From a virus: a stretch of 64,000 bases of DNA. Positions 14,781-46,218 of the stretch are shown here, piece by piece (position 1 is the stretch's first letter; every line of letters starts with the position of its first letter). The notes under the pieces are model-generated. The model was not told the origin of the DNA, did not search any database, and saw only the letters and a list, made by a program, of their open reading frames with translations. The stretch spans positions 1 to 64,000 of IMG/VR virus record IMGVR_UViG_3300043464_001711, one strand, 5' to 3'. Both the position numbers and the translations under genes were made by a program.

Positions 14781-15563
14781 TTAAAAAGATTCTTCTCTCA
14801 ATACATTATATATAACACGATATCTTTTCATTGCGTTTCTAATATCTTTTGTGTTGAGGGTAGTCATTTCCCTCATATAATAAAGTATTAAGTTTTTGTT
14901 GAATTTATTTTTACCAGGGACGTTATCATCATCAAATAGATTTTCCCACTCATCTAATATTGAAGTTAGGGCTCGACCAACTTTGATTTCATTTTCAGTT
15001 AAGACTCTGTTCTCCATCTCTTTTTTTATACTGTTAGAGATATCTTCTATTAACTGAGCTAAATCTGTGTTTGGTTCATCTATGTGGTAAACCATATCTT
15101 CATTTTCCTCAACTAGTGGAGCTACATCATCGTAACTTAAATTTTGTTTTAACCTTTTATCTTCTTTTATCATTTTTCCTAAAAGATAATGTTTACAAAC
15201 AGTACCATAATAAGAATATGATTTTTTATTTTTTAAAGGTTTAAATTTATGAAATTTAATGTGTAAAAAACTTAAAGTATCAGAATGAAGGTCTTCAAAC
15301 TCCATTGTTTTAGAATAGAGTTTGTACCTTCTAATAATACTTTCAATCATTTTATCTAACGGGGCTTTGAGGTGTTTACTATAGATTCTGTTTCTAAGTA
15401 TATCCTCTTCAGTCGTACCAGTCCATCTATACCCTTCTTGTGTTGTAGGGTCTTTAATTAATTTGCCAAGTTCAAGGTATTCCTTTACTGCTTCTTCCTC
15501 TTCTGGACCAAAGTAAGGTTTTTTGTTTGGTTTCCTACCCCTTTTCTTTGGTTCATCCTGCAT
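14781..15563 (-). CDS. late-transcription sigma factor, gp55-like
   Basis: 260 residues. The stretch about 68-145 (LDKMIESIIRRYKLYSK, then FEDLHSDTLSFLHIKFHKF, then YSYYGTVCKHYLLGKMI, then KEDKRL) has the shape of sigma-70 region 2, as in T4 gp55, which binds core polymerase and reads the late -10 element. No region 4 is visible, also as in gp55. The N-terminus is basic (KKRGRKPNKK). It closes the long minus block and lies just before a late operon. It is the obvious candidate to read the (G/A)ATATTTAT motif. Inferred by motif; moderate confidence. Confidence 0.68.
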   Translation of the reverse strand: MQDEPKKRGRKPNKKPYFGPEEEEAVKEYLELGKLIKDPTTQEGYRWTGTTEEDILRNRIYSKHLKAPLDKMIESIIRRYKLYSKTMEFEDLHSDTLSFLHIKFHKFKPLKNKKSYSYYGTVCKHYLLGKMIKEDKRLKQNLSYDDVAPLVEENEDMVYHIDEPNTDLAQLIEDISNSIKKEMENRVLTENEIKVGRALTSILDEWENLFDDDNVPGKNKFNKNLILYYMREMTTLNTKDIRNAMKRYRVIYNVLREESF

Positions 15564-23520: not shown

Positions 23521-24147
23521 TTATTGTATTTTTTTAAATACACCACTAAGTATGTTAGTGTAATTTTGTTCGTTTTTTCTTATAGTATCTTCTATATTGG
23601 ATATGTTAACAACATCGTAACCAATTTCATTCATAAATTTTATTAATGAATCTTCATTAAAATGCCATAAATGTTCATTTGGTTTTCTATGTTTCCAAGT
23701 CTCAAACCAATCATCCGAAAAATAATGACAATTAGGTAATGATATAACAATATATTTTGTTTTAATGTTTTTAATTTGATATATATCCTCTAAATGTTCA
23801 AGAACATCAAAAAAGCACACAACATCAAAATCTTGTGAATATATATCATCAATATATTCACAAGATTTTGGGATATTATATTCATTACTAATATCAGACC
23901 CGTAACAATTTGGAATTAAGTCGGAGGCAACCTTTAAAAAATCACCATTACCGTAACCAACGTCCAGTAATTTATTTATGGGACCATTAATACTACCCAA
24001 AATATAGCCAAGTCTTAAATACCCCATTCTTAACCCTAATTCACCTAATTTATTATAGTTATTTGAATATTCAAACCCATAATTAAAAGGTTTTTTTTCA
24101 ATTTGTTCTATTACACCGTTTTCTAATTTTTTATAATTTTCTAACAT
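23521..24147 (-). CDS. SAM-dependent methyltransferase
   Basis: 208 residues. Motif I is KLLDVGYGNGDFLKVA near 59-74; VVCFFDVLEHLEDI near 109-122 is the DxLEH motif typical of Methyltransf_23-type enzymes of sugar pathways. ISLPNCHYFSDDWFETWKH follows. Its start overlaps the FkbM-like gene by 7 bases. With its neighbours it gives three methyltransferases in a row. Confidence 0.78.
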   Translation of the reverse strand: MLENYKKLENGVIEQIEKKPFNYGFEYSNNYNKLGELGLRMGYLRLGYILGSINGPINKLLDVGYGNGDFLKVASDLIPNCYGSDISNEYNIPKSCEYIDDIYSQDFDVVCFFDVLEHLEDIYQIKNIKTKYIVISLPNCHYFSDDWFETWKHRKPNEHLWHFNEDSLIKFMNEIGYDVVNISNIEDTIRKNEQNYTNILSGVFKKIQ

Positions 24148-35074: not shown

Positions 35075-35097
35075 AAACCCGACATTAAGTCGGGTTT
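35075..35097 (-). terminator. Rho-independent terminator
   Basis: 9-bp stem AAACCCGAC / GTCGGGTTT with an ATTAA loop (plus-strand reading), followed on the minus strand by TTTATTTATT. It ends the operon of structural-type genes running from 37529 and shields the host-type promoter just downstream. Confidence 0.88.
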
Positions 35098-35179: not shown

Positions 35180-35752
35180 TTATGTCCTTTTTGTTTTATT
35201 TGTTAAAACTTTTAACATTTTGACATTTTCTTGGATCATTTTTTTATCGAAATATTTTTCTACAATACTAGGTAAAGCTTTAGCTATTTCTTCAGCAATC
35301 ATTTTTTTAATTACATGAGCATCAAAACCTTGTTGTGTTGGTCCTTTAACCATTTCAACTTTTGTATGTCTTTGTTCTGTTATAAAATCAAATTCATCAT
35401 TCTCTGAATAATAATTTTCTTTTACTGAACTACCATAAGAAGGGTTTATTTCTTTTATATCTTCCTCATCTAAAGAAAACATACCTGGAGCATCAGGCTG
35501 TGGAATAGGGTTTTCCAACATGGCTTTTTGTATTTCAGGTGGTAATTTAGATTCTTTAACTCTTTGTTTATAAGTTTCTCCACCTACGTCTACTTTTTGT
35601 ATTTTTGGTGTTTGTGAAACACTTTCACTCAAACCCGCTTGTCTACCACTAACATTAGCCTCTAATAATGAGGTATCTACATTATCATATTTTTTAGCTC
35701 TTTCGTCTATCGCTTTAGCTTTTTGTAATATAGCTTTTAATCTTGGATCCAT
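35180..35752 (-). CDS. virion-cluster protein
   Basis: 190 residues. Basic helical N-terminus (RLKAILQKAKAIDERAKKYD), an acidic Pro-rich middle (PIPQPDAPGMFSLDEEDI), and a C-terminal helix (IAKALPSIVEKYFDKKMIQE) that looks like an oligomerisation or docking segment. It starts 2 bases after the WYL-like gene in a late-type operon. It could be a scaffold, chaperone or minor head protein; no family recognised. Confidence 0.55.
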   Translation of the reverse strand: MDPRLKAILQKAKAIDERAKKYDNVDTSLLEANVSGRQAGLSESVSQTPKIQKVDVGGETYKQRVKESKLPPEIQKAMLENPIPQPDAPGMFSLDEEDIKEINPSYGSSVKENYYSENDEFDFITEQRHTKVEMVKGPTQQGFDAHVIKKMIAEEIAKALPSIVEKYFDKKMIQENVKMLKVLTNKTKRT

Positions 35753-35754
35753 AA

Positions 35755-36120
35755 TTAAAATTGTGTTATTTTATAAACTCTTTTCATACTTTTATCACCA
35801 GTAGGGTTAAAAAGTGGTCTAGGTTGGTCAAAAGTTCCACCTAGTATCTGAAAACCTTCTATTCTATCAGCTCTAAAAGTTTTCCAACCAGGTTGTATTG
35901 TTTTAGTATCACCCCCAACTTGATATACCCTTATTATATCATTATCAGCTAAAGATAAACCATAACAATAAATCTCAACCCACCTTTGTCCTTTACCCCC
36001 TGGGTCTTCTTCGTCATCATAACGTAAACTAACAAGTCTACGTCTATTCATTGCATTCTCTATTTCAGACTTATTTGCAGCCTCTAATATAATACCTTCT
36101 AATAGAGAGTAAAGTTTCAT
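35755..36120 (-). CDS. WYL-domain-like protein
   Basis: 121 residues from the ATG at 36118-36120. This start is chosen because a longer frame would overlap the upstream gene by 110 bases, whereas this one lies one base after its stop. Residues 20-100 (NRRRLVSLRYDDEED, then WVEIYCYGLS, IRVYQVGG, PGWKTFRADRI) match the WYL-like fold, which binds nucleic acid or ligands. There is no helix-turn-helix, so it is not a standard WYL transcription factor. The N-terminus (KLYSLLEGIILEA) carries an I-L-E site. Confidence 0.6.
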   Translation of the reverse strand: MKLYSLLEGIILEAANKSEIENAMNRRRLVSLRYDDEEDPGGKGQRWVEIYCYGLSLADNDIIRVYQVGGDTKTIQPGWKTFRADRIEGFQILGGTFDQPRPLFNPTGDKSMKRVYKITQF

Positions 36121-36121
36121 T

Positions 36122-36496
36122 TTACCAATATTGTTCTCCAAAAGTAAAGTTGTAATAATTACTTCCTGCGGTTCCTGGTTTGTATTTGTTACCAGATGAA
36201 TAAAGTAGTGCATTCTTTCTTTGTTCATCAATAAGGGTACCTACACCTCCACCCGGTGTAATTTCACCTCTACCATAGTCATCACCTGTATGCTGTGCAT
36301 TAGGGTGTTGTGCATCATATTTTTGTCCATTAAGATTTTTATAAACATTAAAAGTAGTGTTTTGTTGTCTAGTAATTTCACCCTGAACTTTTAATGATGG
36401 TAATTGGTTTGTGACCCCACCACCCTCTGGGTTTAGTTCTTCTACTGAATCATTATCGGTTAGAACTGGTGCGATTGATTGTGCTGGTCCTGGCAT
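36122..36496 (-). CDS. virion-cluster protein
   Basis: 124 residues, low in hydrophobic residues, rich in Asn/Gly/Tyr/Gln (QHPNAQHTGDDYGRGE, then GGGVGTL), and ending in NYYNFTFGEQYW. The extended, aromatic-ended sequence suits a structural connector or plug protein. Its start overlaps the upstream gene by 37 bases. No family recognised. Confidence 0.55.
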   Translation of the reverse strand: MPGPAQSIAPVLTDNDSVEELNPEGGGVTNQLPSLKVQGEITRQQNTTFNVYKNLNGQKYDAQHPNAQHTGDDYGRGEITPGGGVGTLIDEQRKNALLYSSGNKYKPGTAGSNYYNFTFGEQYW

Positions 36497-36963
36497 AATT
36501 TTTTGTTTTTATCAAAAATTGTTATTAGGTTTTCTATTAACCTCATATTATAAATACCTTCTTGTCTTAAAATTTTATTTGTATCACTATCGTGATCTTC
36601 ATTATCTATTCTAACGTTAGGTAATTCTATTTTATTTGAGGCACCTATATTATCCATAGAATCTTTAGTACCTTTAATTCTTTGTCTTGCGTCTGATAAA
36701 GTTTTTTCAACCCAGTTTTTCATTAAAGTACCACCATTCAATAAATAAGGTGTACTTTTCTTACTCCCCTGATAGTTATCAAAAAAATTTTTTATTAATT
36801 TTAATTGTTCATAACTAATACCATCTTTATCTATTAATTTTTTAAGTCTTTGGTGACCTTCTTCATTTTTAGCACCTTTATATGCGTTAAAAATTAAATT
36901 TAAATGGTTTTTAATTTTTTTATCAATATCAAAAGATTGTCCTTGTAATTCTGAATTAGCCAT
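36460..36963 (-). CDS. hypothetical helical protein
   Basis: 167 residues, mostly charged helices (KKIKNHLNLIFNAYKG, then LIDKDGISYEQLKLIKNFF). Its last 12 codons overlap the start of the next gene in another frame, and it shares one base with the upstream gene. No membrane segment or enzyme motif. No family recognised. Confidence 0.55.
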   Translation of the reverse strand: MANSELQGQSFDIDKKIKNHLNLIFNAYKGAKNEEGHQRLKKLIDKDGISYEQLKLIKNFFDNYQGSKKSTPYLLNGGTLMKNWVEKTLSDARQRIKGTKDSMDNIGASNKIELPNVRIDNEDHDSDTNKILRQEGIYNMRLIENLITIFDKNKKLCQDQHNQSHQF

Positions 36964-37529
36964 TACATAATTTTCTTTTTAAGTTCATTTTTATATTCAA
37001 CAGGTATATCAGTCACGTCCATACTTAAAAGGTAATTTAACATGATAGCTTTTTCCTCACCAGTTGCTTCACCTTTTTCTATTAAATCTTTAAGATTTTG
37101 AACTTTTCTAATTAAAATGGGGTTTGTATCCCTTATAGTATCTATTTCTGGGATAGCATTTAATCTTAAATCACTTTTGGTTTTTTGGACAAACTCTTTA
37201 TCAAAATCTTTTTTAGTAAAAATATCTTCAATTAAAGAATCCATCTTGTGTCTAGACACTTCATCCAAACTTACGTTTTTTTTAATTTTATTTTTTTTCT
37301 TTTTTGGTTTTGATTTAATTTCATCACCCTCTAATTCATCGTCTTCACCTAGATATGTAACCCTACCATAATTATTATATTGGTTCCAGCCATTTTGTCT
37401 AACCATTTGTATCCTATCGTCGGTGGTATACTTTGAGGATGTCATATTATCATCTTGATTAATAGGTTCATCACCTCTAATCTTAGCACCATTTTTACCT
37501 ATAAACTCATTTAAAAATAAAATATTCAT
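36963..37529 (-). CDS. virion-cluster protein under hairpin-late-promoter control
   Basis: 188 residues. The N-terminus MNILFLNEFIGKNGAK carries an L-N-E site near residue 8, the (I/L)-x-E form of head leaders. The middle is Lys-rich (KSKPKKKKNKIKKN), then helical. The start codon (37527-37529) lies inside one arm of a 16-bp inverted repeat, and the late promoter lies in its loop, so translation should be limited to late transcripts. No family recognised. Confidence 0.6.
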   Translation of the reverse strand: MNILFLNEFIGKNGAKIRGDEPINQDDNMTSSKYTTDDRIQMVRQNGWNQYNNYGRVTYLGEDDELEGDEIKSKPKKKKNKIKKNVSLDEVSRHKMDSLIEDIFTKKDFDKEFVQKTKSDLRLNAIPEIDTIRDTNPILIRKVQNLKDLIEKGEATGEEKAIMLNYLLSMDVTDIPVEYKNELKKKIM

Positions 37530-37570
37530 GAATTACTTTTCTTATAAATATCAGGTAATTCATGAATATT
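37521..37570 (-). promoter_or_regulatory. late promoter inside a start-codon-masking hairpin
   Basis: Arms 37521-37536 and 37555-37570 are perfect 16-bp inverted repeats with an 18-base loop holding GATATTTAT (37544-37552, minus strand). The downstream arm contains the ATG of the 188-residue gene. RNA from upstream would fold and hide the start codon; RNA begun at the late promoter lacks the first arm. Confidence 0.85.
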
Positions 37571-37578
37571 TAAAAGAT

Positions 37579-40461
37579 TTAGAAATATTCCTTTTCAGTT
37601 TCTTCTTCCTCAAATCTATCTTTAACCATATAATCTGAAGAAATACCTCTCATTTTCCAAAAACGAATTTCTTCATCACTCATAGTCATTAATTCCTCCA
37701 AACTATCTTGGTCCCCTTCTTCTGAAGGTATTCCAGATACCAATTCTAATTCCGTTCTAGTAAAAAATTGTTTATCCGCAGGGTCTGTAATAAGTAAACT
37801 CTCTCTAATATGTGTATTAAATACAACTAATAACGGCTCTACTTTTTTATTAAAAGAATCTATATATTTTGGTACATTATACTCACCCTTCATATTAGGG
37901 TTTTTCTCCATCTCTTCTGAAGTAATCAAATAAGAATTAAAAACCAAAGTACCTTCAGGTGGATCATTTTTAGTTTTCTTAACTTGTATATCACCGTGTG
38001 ATTTTTTATTTCCGTTATTTACGTAATAAACTTGATCCCCTAATTGTGGATCTAAACCTTCTTTAATTAAAAGTTCCATGTGTGCTTGTCTAGCCAAATC
38101 CTTACCATTCTTATCAGTACCTCTATTTAGATACTGTTTAATAGTCTTTTTAACTTTAGCTTTATTCGCTATATCTGCTAATGGTATATCTTTATTATAA
38201 ATCTTTTCAAGGTATTCATTATAATAATCAACAAATTCTTTACCCTTACCATCTAATAACATTTTAATACCGTTATTCAAAAAAGTTTTAATGTATTTTT
38301 GAATCATTTTACCTTTAATAGTATTACCTGTTAATTTAATTTTACCATTTGGTTTTAAGGTTGCATAGTTTTTACGAGATAAATTAATTGTTGCTGGCCA
38401 AACCTCATCAATATCAAGACCCATTGCTTCATACATATATCGGTCATTATACTCCATTACATCGGCCTCAATACCTTTATATTCTTTACCCTTCTCAACA
38501 AATCTATGATAACCTCTACCAATGTAAGTATGGTTCTCAACCTCTTCATCATATGAGAAGTTTACACCATCTGTATCTAATACCAAAGGTTCGTACCCTC
38601 TTTCCATAAAAAATCTAATCATATGTCTAAGATATTGTCTACCAGTACAAGTAATAGTCTCACCAATATCAATATCACCCCAAGGAAAAATATAAGGAGC
38701 CGAAATAGAACCAAAAGCGGAGTTATTGAAAATTTTAATCGGTAATTGTTTTTTATCAAATTTACCGGCTAACTTTTCATCACCCTCTTCTTTATATTTG
38801 TTAGCCAAATATTTGTACTCATTACGTGTATCCAAAAGATATTTTAACATCGCTCTTAAGGCACCTGAAACATCTACTTCAGGGAAAACTTCATGTGTTA
38901 ATTGTATAGAAGGGTAAAGTGAAGCGTAGTCAAATTTAGCGATATTTTTACTATACCCTAATTTCAAAAGACGAGATAATCCTCCCACAAAATCTCTTTT
39001 TGGTGATACGTCTGGTAAAGCTAAATTGTTTTCGTAAGACCATGCCATCATAAGTGTCTTCCACATTGTAGCTGTACCCATCGTAATAGACCTAATAAAG
39101 TTTGTTGGTACCAAAGCAGATGTTAAAAATCCTGCCTGAGCATAAATGTCGTCAACCTGTTCAGTTTCCCAAAGGTCATCATGAAGATATTCTTTAATTA
39201 AAAATTGTCCGTCAACAATTTCCCAAATGTCTTCATAACCTTTTATTATTTCACCATCAATTTCTTTGGGGTTGGGTTTTTCACCATCTAATGAATACCA
39301 TTGTCCACTAGTTTTATTATAATAATATTTTTTATTTTCAGACCAAATCCTACCCAATTGGTTACCATCAACATAAACACGATTTGGTCTTTCTACTTTA
39401 GATTCTTTCGCAATATATTTCAAACCACCTTCTTGTAGATTAGAGTTCAAAGCCATGGCCTGTCTAACTCTATGGTAAGTGTCCATTACATTATAACCCC
39501 ATAATTGAGTTTGTTCGTATTCTTCAGTTTCAGCACCCAACTTCAAACTAGCCTTTTTTCTAGATGCTTTAATCATTGGATGTTTAGTTTTTATAATGTC
39601 ATCAGTACTCATACCTAAAAGTTGTGCCCGTCCAGGTATTAAAGTTTTTTTAACATCCATTTTTTTTGTTCTAGGATTTTTAAACTTTTCCTCTTCTGTT
39701 TTACCAATTAGATAAGTCCAGTCAAAGTTTTCTGAGTTATAACCTATGATTATTGTTGGTTCTAGTTCATGGATTATCTCAAAAAATTCTTTAATCATTT
39801 CCCTTTCACCTTCCTCACTATACTTACCATCTTCACCATAAGCAGTTAAAAGTTTCTGAAAACCACGATTATCTTTAACCCCAATCATAAAAGTATGACC
39901 TTCTGATGGGTCAAGACTTGTGGTCTCAATATCGAATGTTAACTTATGGACCTCAGTATAATCTTCATAACCCTTAAACAACCTTTTACCTGTTTGAATC
40001 ATAAATTGTTCTACAGGGGGTAGAATTTGTATTAATCTTCTATCTCTATCCCAAGGGTCAATCCCACCTCTTTTAAAGAAATTAACTAAATCTCTATAAG
40101 TACCATTTGATTTAACCAAAAAATTAAAGCCTTCACCTAATCTTTCGTTATCACCTGTATTTAATTTATGTGTACTTATACCGTATTTTTTGGCCTCACG
40201 TTTTATAACATCTAGGTTATCACCATAAAAACCACTACCCCGTAATGATTTGGTCCAACAAAAAGGCGTGAATTTTTGTACTTTGACTTTTTTACCCTTA
40301 TTAGGGTCATCGATAATTAAATAAACTTTGTTAGTTTCATCGATTGACCAATCATCTGTTTGGTCTAACTCAATGGAGACAATATATTTTTCAGGGTCAT
40401 GTCCTTCTAAAAATAATTTAATGTCTTCAGGAGTTGCTTGTTTAATAGCATCTTTACTCAT
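37579..40461 (-). CDS. 43: DNA polymerase, family B (gp43-like)
   Basis: 960 residues. The 3'-5' exonuclease has FDIETTSLD (Asp177, Glu179), GYNSENFDWTY (near 240-250) and YNVMDTYH (Asp327). The polymerase has motif A KFDYASLYPS (Asp511), motif B KKQLPIKIFNNSAFGS (570-585) and motif C LDTDGV (Asp629, Asp631). All catalytic residues are present, so the enzyme should replicate and proofread. Its stop lies 9 bases before the inverted repeat of the next gene. No host-type or late-type motif is clear in the 100 bases upstream. Confidence 0.95.
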   Translation of the reverse strand: MSKDAIKQATPEDIKLFLEGHDPEKYIVSIELDQTDDWSIDETNKVYLIIDDPNKGKKVKVQKFTPFCWTKSLRGSGFYGDNLDVIKREAKKYGISTHKLNTGDNERLGEGFNFLVKSNGTYRDLVNFFKRGGIDPWDRDRRLIQILPPVEQFMIQTGKRLFKGYEDYTEVHKLTFDIETTSLDPSEGHTFMIGVKDNRGFQKLLTAYGEDGKYSEEGEREMIKEFFEIIHELEPTIIIGYNSENFDWTYLIGKTEEEKFKNPRTKKMDVKKTLIPGRAQLLGMSTDDIIKTKHPMIKASRKKASLKLGAETEEYEQTQLWGYNVMDTYHRVRQAMALNSNLQEGGLKYIAKESKVERPNRVYVDGNQLGRIWSENKKYYYNKTSGQWYSLDGEKPNPKEIDGEIIKGYEDIWEIVDGQFLIKEYLHDDLWETEQVDDIYAQAGFLTSALVPTNFIRSITMGTATMWKTLMMAWSYENNLALPDVSPKRDFVGGLSRLLKLGYSKNIAKFDYASLYPSIQLTHEVFPEVDVSGALRAMLKYLLDTRNEYKYLANKYKEEGDEKLAGKFDKKQLPIKIFNNSAFGSISAPYIFPWGDIDIGETITCTGRQYLRHMIRFFMERGYEPLVLDTDGVNFSYDEEVENHTYIGRGYHRFVEKGKEYKGIEADVMEYNDRYMYEAMGLDIDEVWPATINLSRKNYATLKPNGKIKLTGNTIKGKMIQKYIKTFLNNGIKMLLDGKGKEFVDYYNEYLEKIYNKDIPLADIANKAKVKKTIKQYLNRGTDKNGKDLARQAHMELLIKEGLDPQLGDQVYYVNNGNKKSHGDIQVKKTKNDPPEGTLVFNSYLITSEEMEKNPNMKGEYNVPKYIDSFNKKVEPLLVVFNTHIRESLLITDPADKQFFTRTELELVSGIPSEEGDQDSLEELMTMSDEEIRFWKMRGISSDYMVKDRFEEEETEKEYF

Positions 40462-40562
40462 AATATATTTTTTGATTTTTGGTACGGGATAAATCTTAAC
40501 CTCTCGTTATTATTAATAATGATTAATTATAATCACTATTATTTAAAAATTAAATAAGCCTT

Positions 40563-43789: not shown

Positions 43790-44398
43790 ATGAAACTAGA
43801 AAAAAATAAAAAATTAAATATCCTTGAAAAAATATCTCTTTGGTGGAGATTTGAGGGTAGGTATTACCATAGAGATTTTAAAAATGGTATTAAAAACCTT
43901 TGGAAGTGGTTTCCTGTTATATGGAAAGACCGTGACTGGGATGACCATTATATTTTTGAAGTTTTAAAGTTTAAACTTAATAAACAGGCAGATTATACTG
44001 GTGGTAGAGGGAATCACGTTAGTGCTAAAAGAGATGCTGAAATTATGCGTCTTGTTACTAAATTAATTAAATTACAACAAGATGAATTCTACGGTATGGA
44101 ATATATGGATTACCATAACACTGATTATGACTTTGTTCCAACTGACTATAAAATTGATGGTAAAAAGTGTTTTGAAATGAAATCAACCCTAGTTAGTGAA
44201 GATTTTGATTCTTACTTTAAAAAATACCCAAGACAATACAAAAGAGTTTTGTCTGGTGATATTAGTAGATACAAAAAACCTATAGAAAAATTGACAAAAG
44301 AATTAATTGCGATGGAAATTGCACACGAAAACCAAGACAGATGTAACAAACTTATCTTTAAACTTCTTGAGGGGAATATTCAAAAATGGTGGAATTAA
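43790..44398 (+). CDS. conserved phage hypothetical protein (KDRDWDDHYI motif)
   Basis: 202 residues from the ATG at 43790. An upstream in-frame ATG at 43691 is rejected because it would run through the promoter and the opposite gene. FPVIWKDRDWDDHYIFEVLK near 44-63 is a motif I recall in small proteins of many large phages, without function. The rest is helical and charged. It ends overlapping the convergent helicase gene by four bases. Confidence 0.7.
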   Translation: MKLEKNKKLNILEKISLWWRFEGRYYHRDFKNGIKNLWKWFPVIWKDRDWDDHYIFEVLKFKLNKQADYTGGRGNHVSAKRDAEIMRLVTKLIKLQQDEFYGMEYMDYHNTDYDFVPTDYKIDGKKCFEMKSTLVSEDFDSYFKKYPRQYKRVLSGDISRYKKPIEKLTKELIAMEIAHENQDRCNKLIFKLLEGNIQKWWN

Positions 44399-46218
44399 AA
44401 ATACCCCCGTATAAATTGGTTAAATAAATCTTCTTCTATATTCATAGACACATGTTCATCACCGATTACAGTGTCTATGATTTTTCTTTTCTTTTCCAAA
44501 ATATTAAACATCATCTCATCTATTGTACCGACGGCTATTGGATAATATACATTTGTTGTCGACTGACTACCTATTCTATGTGCTCTATCTTCAGCCTGTG
44601 CATGGTTAGCTGGTACAAAATCTAAATCATTCATAATAACAACTTCCGCTTCTGTGAGTGTAATTGCTGTACCTGCTGAAACTAAATTACCAACAAAAAC
44701 CATAATATTTTTGTTACTTTGGAATTGGTCTACCGAATTTTGTTTTTGTGTGCTATTCATTTTACCATTATGACCTACAGCAATTTTACCAAAATGGTTC
44801 ATTAAAGCATCAAATGAGTGTGTGAAATTGGTAAATATTATAACTTTCTGACCATTCTCTATTGCTTGTTCAGCTAATTCAATCGTTTGTTTTGTTTTTT
44901 CTAAAGCCAAATATTTTCTAAGAACAACTAACTCAACCATATGTCTACCAGCACCCAATCTTTTACCTTCAGATTTTGCCCATTCTAAATATTCTTCAAA
45001 AACATTGCCATACTCTTTCATATCATCTATCTCAATGTAGTAAGGAGCTACTATTTTTGGTGGTAAATTTAGGTGGTCTTCTTTTTTTCTTCTTAGTATT
45101 AGATTTTTAGTCCTTTCATGTAACTCTTCTAGGTTAGAAGCACCATCAGTCAACCAAATATCTTTATATGTACCGTTTTTTAATTTTTTCTTAAACTTTT
45201 TACCATCACAATATCTAAAAGCGTATTGTTTCCAACTAGCCGTAACAGGTGAATCACATATCTTTAATAAATTAAAAAAGTCCATGGGTCTGTTAGCTAA
45301 AGGAGTACCCGTTAACAACCATCTTCTTTTTATGTTTTTACTTATTTGATTTATTATTTTAGCTCTGTTACTTGACGGGTTTTTAACCATATGTGCCTCA
45401 TCTAATATGATTAACTCAAAACCCTCGTTATCTAGATGTCTATATATTTCATGTTCTTTATATACTTTTCTACCATCTATTATGGTATGAAAATTTTTCA
45501 ATATATCATAATTTATTATAGTATATTTTTTGGGATTCCAATGACCAGATTTAATAATAGAGATGTCTTCTTCTGGTATATAGGCATTTATCTCCCTAAA
45601 CCAATTTATTTTTGCGTTAGCCGGACAAACGATTAATATTTTTTCTGAACCAGATTCTATTGAAGCTATGGTTGACATTAAAGTTTTACCTAAACCCATG
45701 TCATCACCCAAAACCCTATTATTTTTAGATAAAAGAAATTTTATCCCCTCCTCCTGATGTGGGAAAACTCTCCAACCACGTTTATCCATTTTAGCATACT
45801 TTTCGAAGTCAACGTCAACCTCTTTTTCAATATCATAAAGATTTTCGGATACTTGTGTTTTGGGTACATAAAAAAGTGGTGAGTATTTTTGATTTTTAAA
45901 TACTTTCCCTTTTACGTGATAACTTTTTTCAGTTTCACCTAAAACAGTCTCAACTAAAATTTTTTCAGGAATATGATTTAAATCAAATTTTTCTTGTAAT
46001 TGTTTACCTAAAAAATCGGTTATAGTAATAACCTTATTAACTTCCAAAGGTTCCCTATCAAAATTAATATCAACGTATTCAGCTAAACTGGGTGATATTG
46101 GAAAAGGACCTTCTTTTTCCAATCTTTTCTTTAAAGAAATTAAGTACTCATTTGTACCCTCATATTCCTCTAATTTAAGTAAAGCTTTTCTATTTTTTAG
46201 ACTATTGATATCGAGCAT
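44395..46218 (-). CDS. SNF2-family helicase
   Basis: 607 residues. Walker A is GDDMGLGKTL (171-180); the DEAH-type Walker B is LIILDEAHMVKNPSSNRAK near 265-283; RRWLLTGTPLANRP is motif III; the second RecA domain has KVIIFTNF, LVSAGTAITLTEA and AEDRAHRIGSQ (motif VI). The order is that of SNF2/HARP-like translocases that remodel or reanneal DNA. The N-terminal 145 residues are an extra domain. A late-type motif lies 6 bases before the start, an unusually short gap. Confidence 0.88.
   Translation of the reverse strand: MLDINSLKNRKALLKLEEYEGTNEYLISLKKRLEKEGPFPISPSLAEYVDINFDREPLEVNKVITITDFLGKQLQEKFDLNHIPEKILVETVLGETEKSYHVKGKVFKNQKYSPLFYVPKTQVSENLYDIEKEVDVDFEKYAKMDKRGWRVFPHQEEGIKFLLSKNNRVLGDDMGLGKTLMSTIASIESGSEKILIVCPANAKINWFREINAYIPEEDISIIKSGHWNPKKYTIINYDILKNFHTIIDGRKVYKEHEIYRHLDNEGFELIILDEAHMVKNPSSNRAKIINQISKNIKRRWLLTGTPLANRPMDFFNLLKICDSPVTASWKQYAFRYCDGKKFKKKLKNGTYKDIWLTDGASNLEELHERTKNLILRRKKEDHLNLPPKIVAPYYIEIDDMKEYGNVFEEYLEWAKSEGKRLGAGRHMVELVVLRKYLALEKTKQTIELAEQAIENGQKVIIFTNFTHSFDALMNHFGKIAVGHNGKMNSTQKQNSVDQFQSNKNIMVFVGNLVSAGTAITLTEAEVVIMNDLDFVPANHAQAEDRAHRIGSQSTTNVYYPIAVGTIDEMMFNILEKKRKIIDTVIGDEHVSMNIEEDLFNQFIRGYF

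Follow-up and report, generated by a model that had tools for sequence, protein, structure and literature searches.

The window, a stretch of 64,000 nucleotides, is part of a 93,997-bp virus record in IMG/VR. On its minus strand a gene for a 188-aa protein follows the DNA polymerase gene, an assignment made earlier from the letters alone and now backed by a PHROG match (Table 1), and the same two genes adjoin in every one of the large contigs compared. The polymerase stop at 37579 is separated from the 188-aa ORF by an intergenic gap of 49 nt, in which the terminator scan found no terminator, so that read-through from the polymerase gene is expected. The 188-aa gene is the first of a five-gene unit, whose ORFs overlap or nearly touch and which is closed by a terminator-like hairpin. 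The protein itself has no PHROG and only a sub-threshold match in Pfam, and its AlphaFold model was uninformative (low confidence, mean pLDDT 53). All 17 matches of the polymerase to named phages were to phages of Salinibacter, Nostoc, Anabaena or Dolichospermum, the best being Salinibacter phages at ~24% identity; the polymerase is not clearly of the T4 group, as membership of the Straboviridae (T4-like phages) would require. Two further features of the polymerase gene were observed. A strongly conserved hairpin, ACGAG(A/T)GGTTAAGATT..CCCGT, lies ~20–45 nt upstream of the polymerase ATG in 12 of 12 relatives (40484–40507, minus strand, in the window), and by position it resembles the autoregulatory operator of T4 gene 43, although a shared function is a guess drawn from that analogy. 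In one contig (G011; L037, 5001–8900) the polymerase ORF is 1313 aa long, compared with the usual ~960 aa, which suggests an intein.

Table 1 Features of the masked-start locus and of related loci (window positions unless a contig is named).
Feature	Position	Strand	Basis or remark
Terminator-like hairpin closing the unit of the 188-aa gene	35075..35097	-	Terminator scan
Downstream genes of the unit (167, 124, 158 and 190 aa)	35180..36963	-	ORFs overlapping or nearly touching
188-aa gene with predicted masked start	36963..37529	-	Adjoins the DNA polymerase gene, downstream, in 12/12 large contigs
3' hairpin arm with start codon (ATG 37529–37527)	37520..37536	-	
Putative RNA start region, A-run 4–6 nt past the motif	37537..37540	-	A enrichment and invariant AAA
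Putative promoter motif GATATTTATA in the loop	37543..37552	-	ATATTTAT invariant in 18 members; oriented; at unit starts
5' (upstream) hairpin arm	37555..37571	-	Perfect complement of 37520–37536; exclusive to polymerase-side read-through RNA
DNA polymerase gene, from which read-through RNA probably originates	37579..40461	-	phrog_262, E 1.9e-58
260-aa candidate phage sigma factor	14781..15563	-	Conserved in eight contigs; weak matches
Homing endonuclease	G000:70212-71747 = L141:10212-11747	+	Window's record, outside the window
Homing endonuclease	G008:51340-52884		Predicted start lock

The junction of the two genes is occupied by an inverted repeat forming a perfect 17-bp stem with an 18-nt loop. 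An earlier note had described perfect arms of 16 bp at 37521–37570; the arms are indeed perfect, but the stem extends outwards by one more base on either side. The placement given there, with the ATG of the 188-aa gene inside one arm (the 3' arm) and the motif inside the loop, agrees with our analysis. The stem is A-T-rich, with few G-C among its 17 pairs, and each arm holds the palindrome ATTCATGAAT. When the plus strand was folded as RNA, the hairpin was more stable than its shuffles (z = -4.2; 0 of 200 equally good), and the longest perfect stem in 12 simulated first-order Markov windows was at most 12 bp. A second perfect stem of at least 17 bp is nevertheless present in the window, within a coding region, so a long perfect stem is not unique by itself; this second inverted repeat (23826–23870) has 19 bp and a 7-nt loop and lies inside a 208-aa ORF (23521–24147). 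Rfam and tRNA scans gave no match. That the hairpin is a terminator, or a 3'-end stabiliser of the polymerase mRNA that overlaps the next start by chance, is highly improbable: the position just past the polymerase stop, with T-rich sequence after a long stem, would fit, but the stem has few G-C pairs and an 18-nt loop, was not flagged by the terminator scan and does not show the G+C-rich stem, short loop and T tract of an intrinsic terminator, the T-rich stretch encodes conserved protein sequence (MNILFL), and the stems of the relatives are short, mostly A-U and unlikely to terminate.

The loop motif had been described as a late promoter, and a reading of it as that of T4 did not hold: GATATTTAT does not match the T4 late consensus, and exact TATAAATA occurs here only on the opposite strand (37543–37550, plus), facing away from the gene. 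Comparison across the phage family gave ATATTTAT as the working orientation, and motif statistics were collected from the window's whole record and eleven related contigs (31 to 380 kb) in which ORFs had been called. ATATTTAT stands upstream of 289 of 1521 genes, its reverse complement upstream of 61, and its position peaks 12–18 nt before the ATG. At offsets of 4, 5 and 6 nt after the motif, A is found at 79, 90 and 83% of 225 motif sites. Among co-directional genes with gaps of 25–60 nt, 35% have the motif in front of them, and it is nearly absent (2 of 707 genes, 0.3%) where gaps are below 12 nt, a distribution that points to transcription starts rather than to a translation element. None of the 18 members of the 188-aa family departs from ATATTTAT or from the AAA downstream of it. 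ATATTTAT is thus very probably the lineage's own promoter, and from the A enrichment we infer an RNA start at the A-run 4–6 nt past it. Its activity is probably late, judging by analogy with T4 and by what some of the downstream genes encode; PHROG searches with 20 other proteins, nearly all from motif genes, yielded few functions. The major capsid gene has no exact motif nearby, and some late genes may thus be driven without it. No TATTTATA late promoter came up in a literature search. Family-wide, ATATTTAT also forms a smaller second class of sites 4–6 nt before the ATG, for example upstream of 1385–1813 and 44395–46218 (both minus strand) in the window, and if active as promoters these sites would yield nearly leaderless RNA.

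Starts in this lineage show no Shine-Dalgarno signal: SD-like 4-mers occur at 3.5% just before starts and at 4.2% further upstream, and A-rich leaders are found in their place. As a possible reader of the motif, a 260-aa protein is conserved in eight contigs (Table 1). It matches Pfam Sigma70_r2 at E 0.017 and, in two of its eight members, a 'late sigma' PHROG at E 0.005, and hhalign aligns it with residues 50–152 of T4 gp55 at E 0.05; the top PDB matches of a fold search include several sigma factors, none significant. These matches argue weakly for the protein as reader of the motif, and kinship with gp55 is unproven.

The 188-aa family comprises the window and 17 distinct relatives from IMG/VR; no relatives were found in genome_contigs. 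Across these 18 distinct members, the start region costs more energy to open than it does behind dinucleotide-shuffled upstream sequence (mean z = +3.0). In contexts of 100–300 nt, the ATG is predicted to pair with bases upstream of the putative RNA start at a probability of 0.92–1.0 at 11 of 12 loci and of 0.39 at one, and in the window the 5' arm pairs with the ATG at a probability of ~1. RNA initiated at the putative promoter has an opening cost of 0.2–4.1 kcal/mol over the 12 loci. Folding the two RNAs, the check proposed with the original suggestion, gave the predicted outcome, with near-complete pairing of the ATG in read-through RNA of the window and an opening cost that falls from 7.3 to 1.7 kcal/mol in promoter-initiated RNA. 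The corresponding drop is from 14.4 to 0.2 kcal/mol in G004, and G001 is opened only in part (6.3 to 4.1 kcal/mol). These predictions support masking of the start codon in nearly all 18 members.

The members mask their starts through two kinds of fold. In type A, found in the window and in L012, L014, L021, L023, L027, L028, L030 and L031, the ATG has its partner upstream of the motif. Type B comprises L016, L017, L019, L022, L029, L032, L035 and L037; in these the motif region GAUAUUUAU pairs with the first codons AUGAAUAUC, the blocking pairing being that of the promoter motif with ATGAATATC. L018 is of mixed type. On the polymerase tree the fold type has switched at least three times, with masking persisting throughout. 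The type-A arms covary: 89 of 99 pairs are standard, compared with 69.8 ± 4.4 when arms are exchanged between relatives (p about 4e-4) and 25–33% in slid arm registers, and changes on both sides occur at pairs 2–9, with two adjacent pairs exchanged between the window and L012. For this count the arms were placed by eye and the pairs counted by script, as a MAFFT alignment of the trimmed arms gapped the stem. Five motif-pairing members use ATC for the Ile codon at position 3, a codon that accounts for 9% of Ile codons in these genomes, and type-A members with Ile at this position use ATT; ATC would be used because it is needed to pair with the G of the motif, a point made post hoc. Three type-B members (G006, G008 and G011), which rank 27, 32 and 20 of 60, are not above a null in which a motif and the actual start region are retained and the upstream part alone is exchanged; some of type B may thus stem from the AT-rich sequence of the motif. 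Conservation of masking while sequence and fold change, as read from this comparison, would clearly illustrate how selection acts on RNA accessibility.

Two other explanations bear on these comparisons. Translational coupling, by which the AUG would stay shut until a ribosome terminating on the polymerase gene opened the hairpin, so that the 188-aa protein was made in step with the polymerase, is unlikely but the stronger of the two. The polymerase stop lies within or beside the 5' arm in several relatives, with gaps of 29 nt in G002 and 32 nt in G008, G009 and G010. Masking persists, however, at gaps of 45–69 nt (G000, G001, G003–G007 and G011) and where an extra small gene lies between the two (L019, L020 and L022), and, judging from its footprint, a terminating ribosome in the window would upset the outer pairs only. 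Coupling also leaves unexplained the invariant promoter motif and a blocking partner that always lies upstream of the putative RNA start. We give still less credence to a palindromic protein-binding site or other DNA element, or to a perfect repeat that owes its persistence to template-switch mutation and not to selection. The perfect and internally palindromic arms of the window would suit such an origin, as would the finding that an equally long stem is present in just one close relative, L012. Yet arm sequence varies among relatives with pairing retained, and other relatives pair with a wholly different partner, the motif; neither observation would be predicted by a sequence-specific site or by template switching alone.

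A lock of this kind is not a general property of motif genes. The comparison covered 174 motif genes, grouped in 72 families. Most of these are at background, even among families present in 7–10 genomes, which rules out a lock at every motif gene, and the 188-aa family is the most strongly masked of the widely distributed motif families (12 of 12, mean z 4.3). A few other genes stand out. The starts of the homing endonucleases (PHROG E 2.7e-113) at G000:70212 and G008:51340 have opening energies of 17.3 and 16.0 kcal/mol and lie in long predicted hairpins that include the promoter motif, with different sequences but the same fold, and the start of an HNH endonuclease (G001:189374) is also predicted to be locked. 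The gene for the head maturation protease is predicted to be locked at 6.9–8.9 kcal/mol where the upstream gene is co-directional (G001:23887, G003:151747, G004:2612 and G005:8488), in contrast to 1.1 kcal/mol, an open start, where it is divergent (G002:104290), a single natural contrast; at the level of families, the difference between co-directional and divergent upstream genes was not significant (p = 0.25). When the same calculation was applied to 32 T4 genes as a control, e, I-TevI and I-TevII ranked at the top and 49 was found; soc, a known case, was missed.

The computed hairpin, motif statistics, conserved masking, covariation and loss of masking in promoter-initiated RNA lead us to read the start of the 188-aa gene as a cis-acting RNA time switch, with a probability of about 0.7. 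RNA reading through from the polymerase gene would carry both arms, and its fold would bury the AUG and repress translation. RNA begun at the loop promoter ATATTTAT, some 4–6 nt past the motif, would lack the 5' arm and leave the AUG open, an arrangement with which the position of the motif agrees in all 18 members, and starting there would remove the blocking partner of type A and type B alike. The 188-aa gene and its unit would then be silent while the polymerase gene is being read and be switched on once the promoter becomes active, probably late. The essence of the original proposal, that a transcript from upstream masks the ATG and one begun in the loop does not, is borne out in prediction by the invariant motif, the covarying arms, masking through two interchangeable folds and the T4 controls. 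More tentatively, and with the odds somewhat against it, a remote SD-free lineage may have independently evolved a general class of start-codon lock in which the promoter can double as antisense of its own start, used on genes possibly harmful early in infection (homing endonucleases, head protease and the gene after the polymerase) and kept only with a co-directional upstream gene. The time-switch reading would extend a textbook mechanism of T4 to a remote lineage of uncultured phages with contigs of up to 380 kb, and to SD-free translation, for which folding of the mRNA around the AUG is perhaps the chief control available. A usable promoter motif is also gained for this lineage, on which we found no transcription data.

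Initiation without Shine-Dalgarno sites, tuned partly by mRNA structure, has been described in Flavobacterium johnsoniae, a member of the Bacteroidota (PMC6847099). The Bacteroidota share with this lineage the lack of Shine-Dalgarno sites and an A-rich leader, but that work covers bacterial genes generally and no promoter-dependent switch. In T4, a block on early transcripts with translation of late-promoter transcripts is documented for e, soc, 49 and I-TevI (PMC3014915, PMC2988022). For I-TevI, I-TevII, I-TevIII and segB of T4 and mobE of Aeh1, transcripts must come from upstream promoters for the hairpin to form, and a late promoter at the hairpin gives open RNA (PMC2988022). The homing endonucleases at G000:70212 and G008:51340 have a predicted lock of the I-TevI kind; the 188-aa protein, by contrast, is no recognisable endonuclease, and its gene follows the polymerase gene and heads a five-gene unit. 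In T4 e, a helix in the longer early transcripts buries the initiation region, and RNA from a late promoter just upstream lacks the 5' part and is translated (PMC3014915). T4 e relies on TATAAATA and a Shine-Dalgarno site, whereas the locus described here has ATATTTAT, no Shine-Dalgarno site, a different gene and a remote lineage, and the predicted helix masks the AUG alone rather than hiding a Shine-Dalgarno site as in the T4 class. The logic of the switch, known here from structure prediction, is nonetheless the same, and the 5' arm in T4 e consists of the late promoter itself, which is the arrangement of type B in this family.
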